The position numbers and the translations under genes were made by a program. Shown one piece after another: positions 19,603 through 26,213 of a DNA stretch of 64,000 nucleotides. The stretch is from Spirosoma pollinicola. GTDB taxonomy: Bacteria; Bacteroidota; Bacteroidia; Cytophagales; Spirosomataceae. A model generated the notes under the pieces. It was not told where the DNA came from. It saw nothing but the letters and a program-made list of their open reading frames with translations, and did no database searches. Within the stretch, counting starts at the first letter, position 1. Every line of letters starts with the position of its first letter. The DNA lies in assembly GCF_002831565.1 (NCBI RefSeq), contig NZ_CP025096.1:1054001-1118000 (forward strand), read 5' to 3'.

Positions 19603-19743
19603 GGGTATGTACGATCTGGCGCGGGTATTTACCCGTGCCTTTTAATGAAGTCAGTATTTACTGACGCAAGCGAACCGGGACGCCGGACCGGCTTGCTTTA
19701 TGAACAGGCACGGGTAAATACCCGTGCCAGATCGTACATACCC
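19603..19743. repeat. long palindromic element (37-bp arms) with structured core
   Basis: Arms 19603-19639 and 19707-19743 are inverted copies with one mismatch. They include the self-complementary word CGGGTATTTACCCG, so each arm can also fold alone. The core contains GTCAGTATTTACTGAC and GCAAGC..GCTTGC. The same words occur in the element at 23093-23196, with the core in the other orientation. Probable non-autonomous mobile palindrome (MITE or REP-like). Confidence 0.8.
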
Positions 19744-20629: not shown

Positions 20630-23086
20630 ATGCAGGTTCTTAAATTTGGCGGCACCTCGGTTGGGTCCGTAGATAGCATAAAACAGGTTATCCAGATCAT
20701 TGAAAACCATCGGCAAAACGGCGACCAGATAGCGGTCGTGTTCTCGGCGATGGGTGGCATTACCAATCAGCTTATCGAGATTGGGCGGATGGCTACGACT
20801 GGCGAAACCGACTACATGGAACTGGTTCGCCGAATTGAGGATCGCCATTTTAATGTAATAAAGGCCCTGATTCCAGTTAAAGAACAAAGCAAAGTATTCG
20901 CGCACATTCGGGGCATTATTAACGAACTGGAAGATTTACTGCGGGGTGTTTCGCTCATCCGCGAGCTTACGCTTCGTACTCATGACCTGATTACCAGCTT
21001 TGGCGAACGCCTATCGACAACGGTTATTACCGAATGCGTAAAAAGTCTGGGTATTCCCGCGCAGTTTTGCGATGCCCGCAAGATCATTAAAACGGATACC
21101 CAGTTTGGACAGGCTGAGGTAAATTATACCCTGACGAACCAACTCATTCAAGAGCATTTCGCCAAAACGTCTGACCTGCAACTGGTGACGGGCTTCATTG
21201 GCTCGACCGAAAAAAACGAAACGACAACCCTCGGTCGGGGTGGTTCCGACTATACGGCTTCCATCCTGGGCGCGGCTCTGAATGCAGAGGTTATCGACAT
21301 ATGGACGGATGTTGACGGAATGATGACCGCCGACCCGCGCAAGGTGCCCAACGCGTTTAATATTCCAACCATCACCTATGCCGAAGCGATGGAACTGTCG
21401 CACTTTGGGGCCAAAGTAATTTATCCACCAAGTCTGCAACCGGCGTTTGCCCGCAATATTCCGGTTCGGGTGCTCAACACCTTCAATCCAACACACGAAG
21501 GCACCGTGGTGAGCCGCACCGCCGAACGGCGTCAGTATACCATAACGGGTATTTCGAGCATCGACGATATTGCCCTCGTGAACGTACAGGGTTCCGGTAT
21601 GATTGGCGTGGCGGGAGTATCGGCCAAGCTATTTGGCGTGTTGGCGGCCCATAAAATCAGCGTGATTCTGATTTCGCAGGCTTCGTCGGAGCACTCAATT
21701 TGCTTTGCCATCGACCCGCGCGGAGCCGAGAACGTAAAGACAATTCTTGACGCTGAGTTCGCCACCGAAATTGCTCACGGGCACATCGACAACATCGCTA
21801 TTGAACGCGATCTGTCGGTTATTGCGACGGTGGGTGAGGGGATGAAGAAAAGCTCCGGTATTGCCGGGAAACTGTTTTCTGTACTGGGTAAAAACGGCGT
21901 CAACATTGTGGCTGTGGCGCAGGGGTCGTCGGAGATCAACATCTCGGTGGTTATTAATAAAAATAACCTCTCGAAAGCCCTTAACTCGCTGCATAACATC
22001 TTCTTCCAGTCCGAAGCCCGCGTACTAAACCTCTATCTGGTGGGTACGGGTCTGATTGGGAAAACGCTGTTGAAACAGATCTTCGACCAGTCAGAATACC
22101 TGCGTTCGGAGAAGCTGCTGAAGGTTTGCGTGGTGGGTATGACGAACACCAAAAAGATGGTGCTTGACCCAAAAGGTATCTCGTTGGACGGCTGGCGCGA
22201 ACGGCTTTTAACGGATGGCGTCACGACGTCGCTACCGGCCTTTGTCGAGAAAATAAAAGACTATAACCTGCCCAACTCGGTATTTATCGACTGTACGTCG
22301 GACAAAGACATTGTGCAGTTTTACGAATCCTTGCTGGATGCCAATATCTCGGTCGTAACACCGAACAAAGTTGCCAATTCCGGCCCCTATAGCGAGTACC
22401 GACGGTTACAGCGCACAGCCCTGAATCGGGGCGTCAAGTTCCTCTACGAAACCAACGTGGGGGCTGGCCTGCCGATTATCAATACCGTGCAGGGGCTGAT
22501 GACCTCCGGCGACCGTTTTCTTAAAATTGAAGCGATTCTATCGGGTACGTTGTCCTATATTTTCAACACCTTCCGCCCCGGCATTTCCTTTGCCGATGTG
22601 GTGCGCGAAGCCAAAGAAAAGGGCTATACCGAACCCGACCCCCGCGATGACCTGAGCGGCCTGGATGTAGCCCGGAAAATCCTGATTCTGGCCCGGGAAG
22701 CCGGTTTTCCACTTGAGCCGGACGATGTTACAATTACGAACCTGCTGCCGAAGTCGTGTCTGGATGCACCCACGATTCCTGCCTTTTTTGAGGAATTAGA
22801 GCGCAACAATGACTACTTCGAGAATCTGCTCAGCACTGCTTATGAGAAAGGCGAAAAACTCCGGTTTGTGGCTAGTTTCGAGAACAACAAAGCGACCATT
22901 GGCTTAAAACCAGTCGATGCTGACCACCCGTTCTATCAATTAACCGGCGCCGACAACATCGTTTCGTTCACCACCGAGCGGTATAAAGACCGGCCCTTAG
23001 TGATCAAAGGACCGGGTGCCGGTGCGGAGGTAACGGCCTCGGGCGTGTTTGCCGATGTGGTGAGTATCGGAAGCTATTTGGCGTAG
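20630..23086 (+). CDS. thrA: bifunctional aspartokinase / homoserine dehydrogenase
   Basis: An 818-residue fusion catalysing two steps of the aspartate pathway to threonine, methionine and isoleucine. The aspartokinase part (about 1-290) opens with VLKFGGTSVGS and has the TLGRGGSDYTA motif. Two ACT domains (about 310-460) bind feedback inhibitors. The homoserine dehydrogenase part (about 465-818) starts with the NAD(P) motif VGTGLIGK and holds the VGAGLPII and DDLSGLDVARK segments. Length equals E. coli ThrA. Unusual for a threonine operon, thrB and thrC do not follow. A diverged second copy of the last codons lies downstream beyond a palindromic element. Confidence 0.95.
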   Translation: MQVLKFGGTSVGSVDSIKQVIQIIENHRQNGDQIAVVFSAMGGITNQLIEIGRMATTGETDYMELVRRIEDRHFNVIKALIPVKEQSKVFAHIRGIINELEDLLRGVSLIRELTLRTHDLITSFGERLSTTVITECVKSLGIPAQFCDARKIIKTDTQFGQAEVNYTLTNQLIQEHFAKTSDLQLVTGFIGSTEKNETTTLGRGGSDYTASILGAALNAEVIDIWTDVDGMMTADPRKVPNAFNIPTITYAEAMELSHFGAKVIYPPSLQPAFARNIPVRVLNTFNPTHEGTVVSRTAERRQYTITGISSIDDIALVNVQGSGMIGVAGVSAKLFGVLAAHKISVILISQASSEHSICFAIDPRGAENVKTILDAEFATEIAHGHIDNIAIERDLSVIATVGEGMKKSSGIAGKLFSVLGKNGVNIVAVAQGSSEINISVVINKNNLSKALNSLHNIFFQSEARVLNLYLVGTGLIGKTLLKQIFDQSEYLRSEKLLKVCVVGMTNTKKMVLDPKGISLDGWRERLLTDGVTTSLPAFVEKIKDYNLPNSVFIDCTSDKDIVQFYESLLDANISVVTPNKVANSGPYSEYRRLQRTALNRGVKFLYETNVGAGLPIINTVQGLMTSGDRFLKIEAILSGTLSYIFNTFRPGISFADVVREAKEKGYTEPDPRDDLSGLDVARKILILAREAGFPLEPDDVTITNLLPKSCLDAPTIPAFFEELERNNDYFENLLSTAYEKGEKLRFVASFENNKATIGLKPVDADHPFYQLTGADNIVSFTTERYKDRPLVIKGPGAGAEVTASGVFADVVSIGSYLA

Positions 23087-23092
23087 AGATGT

Positions 23093-23196
23093 GGCTGGCG
23101 CGGGTATTTACCCGTGCCTTTTTGTGAAGCAAGCATTCGCTTGCGTCAGTGAATACTGACTTCATGAACTGGCACGGGTAAATACCCGCGCCAGCC
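23093..23196. repeat. long palindromic element (26-bp perfect arms), sibling of the one at 19603
   Basis: Arms 23093-23118 and 23171-23196 are exact inverted complements and share GGCGCGGGTATTTACCCGTGCC with the element at 19603-19743. The core holds GCAAGCATTCGCTTGC and TCAGTGAATACTGA, the same words as the sibling but in the opposite order. It begins 6 bases after the thrA stop codon. Confidence 0.8.
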
Positions 23197-23208
23197 GCGT
23201 GCATAGAG

Positions 23209-23268
23209 CAGGTAATGGCTTCGGACGTATTTGCCGATGTAGTAAGTATCGGGAGCTATCTGGCGTAA
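23209..23268 (+). pseudogene. orphan second copy of the thrA 3' end
   Basis: Bases 23215-23268 read MASDVFADVVSIGSYLA then TAA, against TASGVFADVVSIGSYLA then TAG at the true end of thrA (23033-23086). There are 9 differences in 54 bases, 7 of them synonymous or in the stop codon. Similarity extends only a codon or two upstream (GAG-GTA against CAG-GTA). No start or upstream coding sequence remains, so it is a remnant. Confidence 0.8.
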
Positions 23269-23372: not shown

Positions 23373-24587
23373 ATGCGCTTTTGGCTCTCGCTTGCCTGCT
23401 TTTTATTTCTTTCATTCTCCGTTTTCGCTCAGCAGAACACCGCTTATAAAGACCCGACTGTAGCTTTAGAAAACTTCGACTTCGAGGCTATTGATTACAA
23501 TACATTAGATTCCATTTCACGCGATTATATCAACGCTATGGAGCACAGCCTGTACCACCGATTTGATAAGGCTGAAGCATTGCTGAAGAAAGTGGCTTTA
23601 CAGACGACCTCCCCGTTGAGCGGGGTAGCTCGTTATCACTTGCTAAACGAGCTTTACTTCTGGCGGGGTAACTACGCGGAGTATGTGAAATTTGCTGACC
23701 AGATAAATGAGAAGCCAGAGTTCTATGAGTTGGCTAGCTTGTTAGCCGTACATCCGGCCATGCACGTCAATTTCTCCACCGACAGTTTAGTGATTCCCGT
23801 CACGATTCGAAAGCATAGTTATATTATCGTAGAGGTGTTTCTTAACGGAAAGCCTGTACGGCTCATCCTCGATTCGGGGGCTAGTTTTTCAATTGTTTCT
23901 CATAAGTTGAATGACGAACTGAAGGTAAAGCCTTTAGCGAATATAAACTTTCAGAATTCGGTTGGCACAATGATTAAGGAGCCTGTCGGCCTACTTGATT
24001 CACTGTCATTTGGTAACGTTCAACTAAAGAATGTACCAATAATCTACACGGCAAAGAATAGCGTTTTCAAACGGATGCACGTCGATGGCCTGTTGGGCTG
24101 GGATATTCTGCAAAAGCTCGCTTATACGGCTGATTTCAAAGCACAGACGCTTATGATCTGTAAGCCTGTTATAGACTCAACCGCCGAAAAAAATCTATTT
24201 GGTATAGGGCATCCTATTCTGATTGTTCGCACATCTTCGGACAACCCACTCAATATGTATTTTGACTCCGGTTCCAATAGTGTTGATTTACGGGAGAAAG
24301 GAGCCGCTAAACTTGGAGAATATAAGACCAGGAAAAGGCCGGGGGCAACCTTTGGCATTGGTAAAATGAAAATAGGCCTGTTTCGTTATGTGAAGGGTTT
24401 TACGTTTCAGACAAGCGGTCAATCATTTAGCCGGAAGTCTACTTATTTATCGCCCGTTGAGTATAGTTCGTTGAACATCATCTGTGACGGTGTCATTAGT
24501 AATGCACCTTTTCAAAAAGGCCGTCTCACGATTGATTACCTGAACAATCATTTCGGCTATACCGAGATGAAAGCCACAAAACGCTGA
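23373..24587 (+). CDS. secreted retropepsin/pepsin-like aspartic protease
   Basis: A 404-residue protein with a signal peptide (MRFWLSLACFLFLSFSVFAQ). Residues about 20-130 form an alpha-helical region. The rest carries two clan AA half-sites: LILDSGASFSIVS with D167, and MYFDSGSNSVDL with D298. A hydrophobic-Gly motif (VDGLLGWDIL, about 237-246) matches the partner of the first site. Two DSG motifs in one chain suggest an intramolecular pepsin-like pair; many bacterial relatives instead dimerise. It is probably periplasmic. The McrB-like gene starts 39 bases downstream on the same strand, so the two may be co-transcribed, though compartments differ. Confidence 0.85.
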   Translation: MRFWLSLACFLFLSFSVFAQQNTAYKDPTVALENFDFEAIDYNTLDSISRDYINAMEHSLYHRFDKAEALLKKVALQTTSPLSGVARYHLLNELYFWRGNYAEYVKFADQINEKPEFYELASLLAVHPAMHVNFSTDSLVIPVTIRKHSYIIVEVFLNGKPVRLILDSGASFSIVSHKLNDELKVKPLANINFQNSVGTMIKEPVGLLDSLSFGNVQLKNVPIIYTAKNSVFKRMHVDGLLGWDILQKLAYTADFKAQTLMICKPVIDSTAEKNLFGIGHPILIVRTSSDNPLNMYFDSGSNSVDLREKGAAKLGEYKTRKRPGATFGIGKMKIGLFRYVKGFTFQTSGQSFSRKSTYLSPVEYSSLNIICDGVISNAPFQKGRLTIDYLNNHFGYTEMKATKR

Positions 24588-24626: not shown

Positions 24627-26213
24627 GTGCTAGCCGATACCCAACAACAACCCCTCATTGACCGCATTCGTGATATTGATCACCCCGAAGCTGTTCGGCG
24701 ATTTTTTGGGTTGTTAAAGGAATTGATCGACATGGTTAACCTGCCCAATGGCGATGCCCGGCTGGCCTTTACGGTTCGGCAGGAGAAAGCCGCCATCACG
24801 GCGCATATCAATTTCTTTCAGGCTCTGCGTATTCAACGCCAGCGTCGCAGTGAAGTTGAATACCACCTTACCATTAAGAAATCCTGTCAGGATCGGCTGA
24901 AAACCATTGAGGAACTGGTTTTTGAACCCCTGACCGAAAAGTCCGATTATCTGGCCGTCATCATTGGGCAGTCGAATGTGCATTTGCTGTATATGCCGGT
25001 GCTGCGAACCTGCTGGGAAGACTGCCTGCTCGAACTGGTCGAGACGAGTAAACGGGGGCCGCACTCCGCCCGACATAACGCCGATGTGTACCGGGCCGCC
25101 GAAGACGAAGCTTTTCTGAGTGAAGTTATCCGGCTTGCCGATGATCCAACGCTGGCAGATCGGGTGTCGAACGGTAATGCCGTTGAGGAGCCGGAAGCCG
25201 GGTATGAACTAGAGCCAGCGCTGCCAAATCAACCCCATAATCTCATTCTGTTTGGCCCACCAGGTACGGGCAAAACGTTTGCCTTACAGCCCTATTTGCG
25301 GGAAAATAACTCGTTTATTACGTTCCATCCATCCTACAGCTACGAAGAGTTTATTGAGGGCATTCGACCGGAGGTACTCAACGGGCAAATCAGCTACAAA
25401 ATTCGCAAGGGTATTTTTTATAAAGCCTGTATGTCGGCCATTCAACAGGCGGGATACGGCACTCTGGCCGACTGCCTGAACGACTCGGTGGAAAACCGTA
25501 CCCGAAAGTTAAAAAAAGCACCAGCCTATTATTTGCTCATCGACGAGGTCAACCGCGCCAACGTTGCCAGTGTGTTCGGGGATTTGATTACACTGCTCGA
25601 AACCGACAAGCGGCTGGGTGCAGCCAATGAACTTTGGCTTACCTTACCCTATTCGCAGGAGCGTTTTGGCGTGCCGCTAAATCTATTCGTTGTGGCAACC
25701 ATGAACACCACCGACCGCTCGATTGCGCTGTTGGATATTGCCCTTCGACGCCGGTTCTCGTTTCGGGAAATGCTGCCCGATCCAACGATTTTAGGCGTTA
25801 TCGACGGTATTGATCTGGCCCAATTGCTGCGGACCATCAACGAGCGTATCGAATACCTGCTCGACCGGGACCATCAGATTGGTCATGCCTATTTTACAAC
25901 GGTCGAAACCCACGCTGAACTTTGTGCCGTCTTTCGTGATCGGATTATTCCGCTGCTGCAGGAATATTTTTTTAATGATTGGGCTAAGATTCAGCTTGTT
26001 CTGGGCGACAATCCCGCCTGGGGTAAAGACCCCGACTTACGTTTGATTCGGATTAAGAAAAAATATACGTCGGTAGCAGCCAGTAAGTTATTTGGCGAAA
26101 TGCCGGATTCTGTAGATGAAATAGTAACCTATGAAATTAACCCAAGTCTAAAAGATGATAACTGTGAACAAATACCGGCCGATGCCTTTGTTCGAATTTA
26201 TCAGAAGCAGTAG
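24627..26213 (+). CDS. McrB-type AAA+ NTPase without a neighbouring McrC
   Basis: A 528-residue cytoplasmic AAA+ protein starting at GTG (stops upstream leave no ATG). The N-terminal domain (about 1-190) is not recognised. The AAA module holds Walker A GPPGTGKT at 210-217, the FHPSYSYEEFIEGIRPEV segment typical of McrB, Walker B YYLLIDEVNRAN at 301-312, and MNTTDRSIALLD..ALRRRF near 359-376, close to the MNTADRS signature of the GTP-hydrolysing McrB group. McrB normally drives the McrC nuclease in cutting modified DNA. No McrC-like gene is adjacent: the next gene is an alcohol dehydrogenase. It may work with a distant partner or have a different role. Confidence 0.85.
   Translation: MLADTQQQPLIDRIRDIDHPEAVRRFFGLLKELIDMVNLPNGDARLAFTVRQEKAAITAHINFFQALRIQRQRRSEVEYHLTIKKSCQDRLKTIEELVFEPLTEKSDYLAVIIGQSNVHLLYMPVLRTCWEDCLLELVETSKRGPHSARHNADVYRAAEDEAFLSEVIRLADDPTLADRVSNGNAVEEPEAGYELEPALPNQPHNLILFGPPGTGKTFALQPYLRENNSFITFHPSYSYEEFIEGIRPEVLNGQISYKIRKGIFYKACMSAIQQAGYGTLADCLNDSVENRTRKLKKAPAYYLLIDEVNRANVASVFGDLITLLETDKRLGAANELWLTLPYSQERFGVPLNLFVVATMNTTDRSIALLDIALRRRFSFREMLPDPTILGVIDGIDLAQLLRTINERIEYLLDRDHQIGHAYFTTVETHAELCAVFRDRIIPLLQEYFFNDWAKIQLVLGDNPAWGKDPDLRLIRIKKKYTSVAASKLFGEMPDSVDEIVTYEINPSLKDDNCEQIPADAFVRIYQKQ

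Follow-up and report, generated by a model that had tools for sequence, protein, structure and literature searches.

The 3' end of thrA as a probable recurrent address for small toxin-antitoxin-like cassettes bracketed by copies of the gene's own tail in Spirosoma and related bacteria

How chromosomal toxin-antitoxin (TA) modules move when they carry neither a transposase nor an integrase of their own is, to our knowledge, an open question. In Neisseria, minimal mobile elements are small alternative gene sets lying between conserved genes, and their exchange is put down to homologous recombination in the flanking sequence; integrative elements that enter the 3' ends of genes restore the open reading frame (ORF) of their target and leave a second copy of the gene end on the far side. 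The insertion of restriction-modification (R-M) genes with a long target duplication was reportedly described by Nobusato et al. in 2000. According to passages of PMC3874152, the insertion of some R-M systems, unlinked to a mobile element, duplicates the target over a long and variable length on the order of 100 bp; the case from H. pylori is summarised in passages of PMC1643837, and those of PMC2654758 and PMC3031569 go no further than citing the 2000 paper or dealing with movement linked to insertion sequences (IS). For TA genes themselves, passages of PMC2701414 deal with PIN-COG2442 and MNT-HEPN modules, their mobility and the insertions by which strains differ; the phrase "direct repeat" appears nowhere in that text. 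No report of TA cassettes bracketed by the tails of host genes was found among literature titles and the beginnings of abstracts, a body of text of incomplete coverage that leaves most subscription papers and all bioRxiv preprints outside. The present account concerns a stretch of 64,000 nucleotides from Spirosoma pollinicola (contig NZ_CP025096.1, positions 1,054,001 to 1,118,000, hereafter the window), in which the 3' end of the biosynthetic gene thrA, here called tail 1, is followed at a short distance by a second copy, tail 2, with a palindromic repeat between the two.

The reading put forward here, to which we give a probability of about 0.6, is that the 3' end of thrA is a recurrent address for small type II TA-like cassettes that are bracketed by copies of the thrA tail and are gained and lost by homologous recombination through those tails. 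A second thrA tail, 0.1-1.2 kb downstream, occurs at 18 thrA loci in Spirosoma, Fibrella and its kin, Rudanella and an Arcicella-like metagenome-assembled genome (MAG). It was found at 14 of 41 thrA loci with downstream DNA, the weakest being G013 (score 16 against 12, backed by its junction) and G009 (18 against 12), and at two (G168 and G172) of the 16 loci with a recognisable thrA stop among 20 further loci that were fetched, four having no such stop. Two more clear cases came from 79 of 80 named loci, namely L164 (a Rudanella MAG) and L219 (a Cytophagales MAG with an Arcicella-like flank); L173, L187, L221, L222 and L225, which scored 16-18 in that scan, were left out of the count. At all 17 of the second-tail loci other than the window, predicted type II TA genes, some of them broken, lie between the tails.

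Representatives of three of the four cassette types gave Pfam assignments, namely DUF433 together with DUF5615/PIN_10, PemK_toxin, and Kinase-PolyVal, and the partner of the PemK-like toxin approaches DUF2281 at a score below the Pfam cut-off. The cassettes are mostly codirectional with thrA, the pair being reversed in G029 and G021, and in most of them some 20-40 nt separate the thrA stop from the start of the upstream partner, and the gap from the toxin end to tail 2 is no more than about 30 nt, the exception being L219, where that gap is nearly 500 nt. Two cassettes, a PemK and a truncated kinase, are stacked between the tails behind thrA in G012 (L063). No R-M cargo was found, PADLOC giving no match for any of four cassette proteins, a set that did not include PemK. 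Nor was any integrase or recombinase seen among the inter-tail ORFs (of at least 40 or at least 60 amino acids), which held TA-like genes and overlapping mechanical ORFs, in a check made by eye and by Pfam of representatives, not of every ORF; an integrase acting in trans may still be involved. A separate observation concerns the kinase cassettes behind thrA (L099-L104 and L069, from G171), where a short ORF of about 50-65 amino acids from its first ATG, with the core YLNEYH...SEQPLMSLQECIEQAKRL, lies, in another reading frame, within the beginning of the Kinase-PolyVal gene. In all 21 genome pairs the DNA of the overlap is more conserved than the rest (0.77-0.92 against 0.68-0.78), and the nested ORF is likely to be the partner or antitoxin.

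Empty sites provide further evidence. For 7 of the 16 filled loci tested there is a cassette-free relative whose flank matches that behind tail 2. The match begins with the first bases behind thrA when G214 is compared with G215, G010 with G007, and G029 with G019 and G001, and it begins 18-39 bases in when L219 is compared with L221, G009 and G012 with G014, and G013 with G015. The two tails of G010 differ at five positions, and because tail 2 agrees with the empty sister G007 at three of these (two of them in the last four bases), where tail 1 differs, it is taken to be the resident end; at the other two positions tail 1 agrees with G007, one of them being a nonsense change in tail 2. The junction between cassette and tail is also informative. 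In G025, G035, G010, G013, G168 and G172, which belong to two genera, the start of the tail coincides exactly with the toxin terminus, which reads -H(E/D)-stop, with the stop on the joint itself, whilst G018 and G002, which like these are among the eight forward DUF433 cassettes examined, are without tail 2. Behind the shared joint tail 2 has local features, such as GCT GCG in G010 as in G007 and GGGTAA as its last bases in G168. Recombination through the tail would be expected to leave just this, a joint in common and a tail of local type, the alternative being gene conversion between the tails.

The association of particular cassettes with thrA was followed through 36 genomes of the genus, in 17 of which the kinase, DUF433 and PemK searches together placed a TA-like cassette behind the gene. 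All kinase-cassette copies of at least 65% identity (seven genomes) lie directly behind thrA and those found elsewhere are at 40-45%, all DUF433 copies of at least 81% (six genomes) and all PemK copies of at least 77% (three genomes) are at thrA, and the two reverse-oriented DUF433 cassettes (G021 and G029; 61-63%) are there likewise. On a DUF433 tree of 29 rows, from which the short rows L130, L131 and L136 had been dropped, the thrA label required 3 changes against 8.4 when shuffled, with none of 500 shufflings as low, a result that must be read with the proviso that near-copies alone may cluster a label. Shared addresses of this kind are not confined to thrA. The kinase copies L108, L109 and L110 follow one and the same gene in three genomes, as judged by the end of the preceding gene, and the DUF433 copies L128, L129, L130, L135 and L136 follow one gene, alpha-amylase-like by the Pfam assignment of L128, in five genomes; no tail repeat was detectable at those five loci.

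A cycle of gain and loss might then run as follows. The first capture of a tail would probably have been by illegitimate recombination, as with the long target duplications of R-M genes. Thereafter the tails could act as portable homology arms, such that RecA-dependent recombination with a donor fragment or circle would insert the cassette whatever gene lay downstream; tail 1 would complete a functional thrA, and tail 2 with the flank beyond it would be the old resident end. Recombination of tail 1 with tail 2 would remove the cassette cleanly, and addiction would help to retain a cassette once gained.

An important consideration is whether the tails need to have travelled at all, and a number of observations, set out in this and the two following paragraphs, weigh against the reading. 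It may be that each TA insertion simply duplicated the native tail in place by illegitimate recombination and that the copies then drifted, with no travel of homology arms. This is what the variable lengths of the repeats (20-65 nt in the 41-locus thrA set, 70 nt in L219 and 37-167 nt at other genes) would lead one to expect, as would the differing right junctions of the PemK cassettes, the lineage-native look of both tails in G214, the identity of the tails in G029 and at a pantoate ligase gene and, in so far as the passages cited above describe it, the R-M precedent. Such an origin is nonetheless judged unlikely, since it does not account for the thrA-specific cassette families within the genus, for one junction common to six genomes of two genera, or for the silent bias of the differences between tails. 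When these were pooled over 24 loci (G168 and G172 lying outside the pool) there were 68 synonymous and 39 nonsynonymous changes where 24% silent would be expected under a uniform model (P 8e-18), a model without transition bias, and the tails in general have therefore diverged while coding. The two tails thus probably derive from different alleles, as far as can be read from their sequences. Many single tail pairs, for example those of G012, G017, G214, G171, L146 and L147, show no silent bias by themselves.

Much of the pattern could also be the product of old vertical inheritance, with one or a few ancestral insertions, tails kept alike by gene conversion and empty sites that arose as losses by recombination between tails. 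One reason for entertaining this is that the cassettes diverge more between species than does thrA in 38 of the 39 pairs with both values (62-82% against 74-91% nt); the junction common to two genera, the concordance of the closest pair, G025 and G035, in the cassette tree and in thrA, and the finding that in five of seven genomes compared no tail lies closer to tail 2 than tail 1 of the same genome are others. However, tail 2 of G000 and of G035 is closer to the tails of some other species than to its own tail 1, and the close relatives G025 and G026 hold different TA families at the site. Descent of this kind is judged somewhat less probable than duplication in place.

The remaining difficulties concern the cassettes themselves. 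At six thrA cassettes (G031, G032, G020, G018, G002 and G021) a second tail was not detected, and for 9 of the 16 filled loci, including G000, there was no empty-site match or only an indirect one. Internal stops interrupt the kinase in G017, G027, G031 and G020 and the PemK in G009, and G012 has a truncated kinase. The TA activity of the cassettes is predicted from their Pfam assignments, and the pair in L219 is PIN-like by eye only, outside the Pfam test. Movement of cassettes is likewise inferred and not observed, no circle, donor or transfer being known.

With these reservations in mind, the recurrent-address reading can be applied to the window (Table 1), where the first-pass annotation had correctly noted that the end of thrA reappears 182 bases downstream with nine changes, seven of them silent or in the stop codon. 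The repeat search returned a 58-nt direct repeat (23028-23085 and 23210-23267) with 86% identity, the coding differences being six synonymous and two nonsynonymous, with the third base of the stop (TAG/TAA) in addition. That the copies diverged while coding, also claimed at the outset, agrees with this 6:2 ratio as it does with the pooled figures. Because the local score of the repeat is 42, against 13 in a reverse-strand control, the tail copy is not a matter of chance. Nor is local duplication general in this genome, an explanation that was rejected: in a scan of 1.264 Mb, 16 of 990 ORFs had a tail copy scoring at least 20 (four in the reverse-strand control), and only two of the 990, thrA and an FGGY kinase gene with a TA cassette, were judged to have a copy of the tail alone and in isolation, while the remaining 14 are weak or tandem paralogues. 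The thrA product has the Pfam domains AA_kinase, ACT, NAD_binding_3 and Homoserine_dh, and its nearest named relative is that of Spirosoma fluviale (97%).

Table 1. Positions in the window of thrA, its two tails, the palindromic repeats and the genes downstream
Feature	Position	Strand	Remarks
thrA	20630..23086	+	818 aa ORF; bifunctional aspartokinase / homoserine dehydrogenase; 3' end is the candidate cassette address
Tail 1	23028..23086	+	functional thrA 3' end, stop TAG; first member of direct repeat
Tail 2	23210..23268	+	second copy of thrA 3' end, closed by a separate in-frame stop, TAA
Palindromic MITE-like repeat	23093..23196		separates the tails, with a core at about 23095-23194; this genome has many other copies of the family
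Further copy of palindromic repeat	19616..19730	-	about 0.9 kb upstream of thrA; no comparable flanking duplication (score 11)
Aspartyl-protease-like gene (Asp_protease_2)	23373..24587	+	resident downstream gene; leader also behind tail 2 in S. fluviale (G026)
AAA ATPase gene (AAA_5)	24627..26213	+	in G014, G004, G016 and other relatives DNA alignment places its homologue immediately after thrA

It had been proposed that a related allele took the place of a resident thrA, or that a foreign one was inserted, with the old tail left behind and the palindrome at or near the junction. The idea of an old tail survives, in that a second tail with its flank represents the resident end in some relatives; replacement of the whole gene finds no support, and the proposal as it stands is judged very improbable. 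It would explain the silent-biased divergence of the window tails, and the divergence of the window thrA from those of G026, G025 and G035 does rise after alignment column 2165 (from 0.063 to 0.137, permutation P 0.003), which hints at an imported tract. However, only about the last 300-350 nt are affected, the background increases over these columns too, and breakpoints lie elsewhere in other pairs of thrA sequences. The three nearest relatives are moreover more similar to tail 1 than to tail 2, and tail 1 is no more foreign than tail 2, a point that counts also against the recurrent-address reading. For nearest-neighbour placement, two 58-nt tails are too short a basis to decide. As a matter apart, the divergence between thrA of G025 and G035 jumps at about column 284 (from 0.015 to 0.098, permutation P 0.001), likely a recombination breakpoint inside thrA that is unrelated to the tail, and in L064 (G016) thrA was found by search to be in four pieces with one internal TGA, read as a frameshift or an error of assembly, since this biosynthetic gene is conserved elsewhere.

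In relatives it is TA-like genes that lie between the tails. The palindrome has arms of 49 nt (23093-23141 and 23148-23196) that are 84% complementary and belongs to a dispersed repeat of some 100-120 bp. A search of the genome with the 120 bp between the tails gave 81 matching rows, many of them single copies counted on both strands or in pieces, and at the 28 best-match loci, to which the check was confined and some of which are one copy taken twice, the flanking direct-repeat scores were 7-15 against 42 at the window, the two loci of the window copy itself being excepted. Insertion of the palindrome, or of a miniature inverted-repeat transposable element (MITE), as the agent of duplication was accordingly rejected, and the repeat looks incidental to it. 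The same repeat stands directly behind thrA tail 2 in G025 and G035. Palindromic elements of other kinds were seen by eye directly behind the thrA stop of L036 (G034) and L054 (G005), neither of which has a second tail.

Since window tail 1 with its palindromic repeat aligns with tail 2 and the palindromic repeat of G025 and G035, an arrangement that speaks against replacement of thrA, and window tail 2 abuts the leader of the aspartyl-protease gene as does tail 2 in S. fluviale (G026), two alleles of the thrA end stand here in series. Window tail 2 is read as the old resident thrA end or a relic of one. Either a cassette would have gone or the repeat would have been the sole cargo, leaving tail 1, palindromic repeat and tail 2 in that order. 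The window is probably a scar without cargo that holds the repeat, and to judge from the relatives the lost cargo would have been a TA pair; it should be added to the points against the reading that no TA remnant is visible in the approximately 20 bp between the tails outside the repeat and that a cargo once present is inferred, not observed.

TA cassettes behind other genes give some indication of how general the phenomenon may be. Among 29 fetched TA loci of the genus away from thrA, a set that leaves out 15 of 45 DUF433 matches, eight are bracketed by a copy of the tail of the preceding gene. The flank-repeat threshold was passed by 11 of the 29, of which L109, as weak, and L121 and L122, where the repeats lie away from gene ends, do not count among the eight, and a score of at least 30 was reached by 10 of the 29 compared with 30 of 1500 random segments (Fisher P 6e-10), the random segments coming from the window genome alone and the TA loci from several genomes. 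Six of the eight host genes were assigned by Pfam, namely a YceG/mltG-like gene, the FGGY kinase gene, which is in the window genome itself, pantoate ligase, gamma-glutamyltranspeptidase, a MoCoBD protein and a HATPase_c histidine kinase; the others are the gene at L147 and, at L124, another histidine kinase whose C-terminus is similar. At L124 (G026, 653-2100) two small genes that are MNT/HEPN-like by eye are stacked with a DUF433-DUF5615 pair between one pair of tails. A wider sample of 60 loci (30 DUF5615 loci from the phylum and 30 PemK loci from the family) yielded one further clear case, L339 from a Rudanella MAG, with 76 nt at 97% at a gene end; L315, L326, L336 and L364 had been dropped for short contigs and self-overlapping flanks, and the flagged loci L310, L311, L318, L319, L325, L333, L344 and L348 were not counted as tails. 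A more ambiguous locus is L309, from a distant genome of the phylum, where a DUF5615 pair lies within a 36-nt repeat of 92% identity (1451-1486 and 2084-2119) that starts directly behind the toxin stop, yet behind terminator-like sequence, and is not clearly at a gene end.

A broader proposition, which we hold tentatively and at slightly less than even odds, is that there exist transposase-free mobile TA cassettes, each associated with one conserved host gene whose 3' end would serve as a portable arm, that insert by RecA across species and are removed without a scar, the toxin even drawing its stop from the host tail. If this were true, tails acting as arms would explain the patchy distribution of TA genes, the siting of these genes just after household genes and the cleanness of their loss, and TA-like cargo could be sought by looking for small inserts flanked by two copies of a gene end. 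The duplicated thrA end suggests a scar at a landing site, and that such gene pairs may travel by borrowing the tail of a host gene. A recurrent, addressed cassette site goes beyond what the first-pass annotation proposed and was not visible from the window alone.

Compared with known systems, the closest precedent, on the passages available, is R-M insertion with long target duplication. The two are alike in having selfish two-component genes, no link to a known mobile element and long, variable target repeats. Long direct repeats flank the insert at the 18 thrA loci and at the eight of 29 other loci, and a single-copy empty target is present in a related genome for 7 of 16 filled loci. That R-M-type repeats are identical at birth, as pure target duplications, is our own assumption; the repeats here are identical in G029 and at pantoate ligase and native-looking in G214, but in the pool their differences are silent-biased. 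Again within the limits of those passages, the present cases differ in their TA-like cargo, their siting at the 3' ends of household genes, their mostly codirectional orientation and their locus-specific families, as well as in tails that have diverged at silent sites and a cassette/tail junction common to two genera. The minimal mobile elements of Neisseria share with them alternative gene sets and recombination through flanks, but here the arm on the right repeats the tail of the gene on the left, so that the far flank need not be shared. Integrative elements at gene 3' ends likewise leave the target gene intact and a second copy of its end, whereas here no integrase was seen, the inserts are about 0.6-1.2 kb, the repeat length varies and several genes serve as targets. 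Type II TA modules such as PIN-DUF433 (COG2442) and MazF/PemK are alike, in the accounts as far as available, in gene content, small size and patchy mobility, and whereas the passages of PMC2701414 concern insertion differences between strains, the cassettes described here are distinguished by the repeats of the host-gene tail that bracket them.

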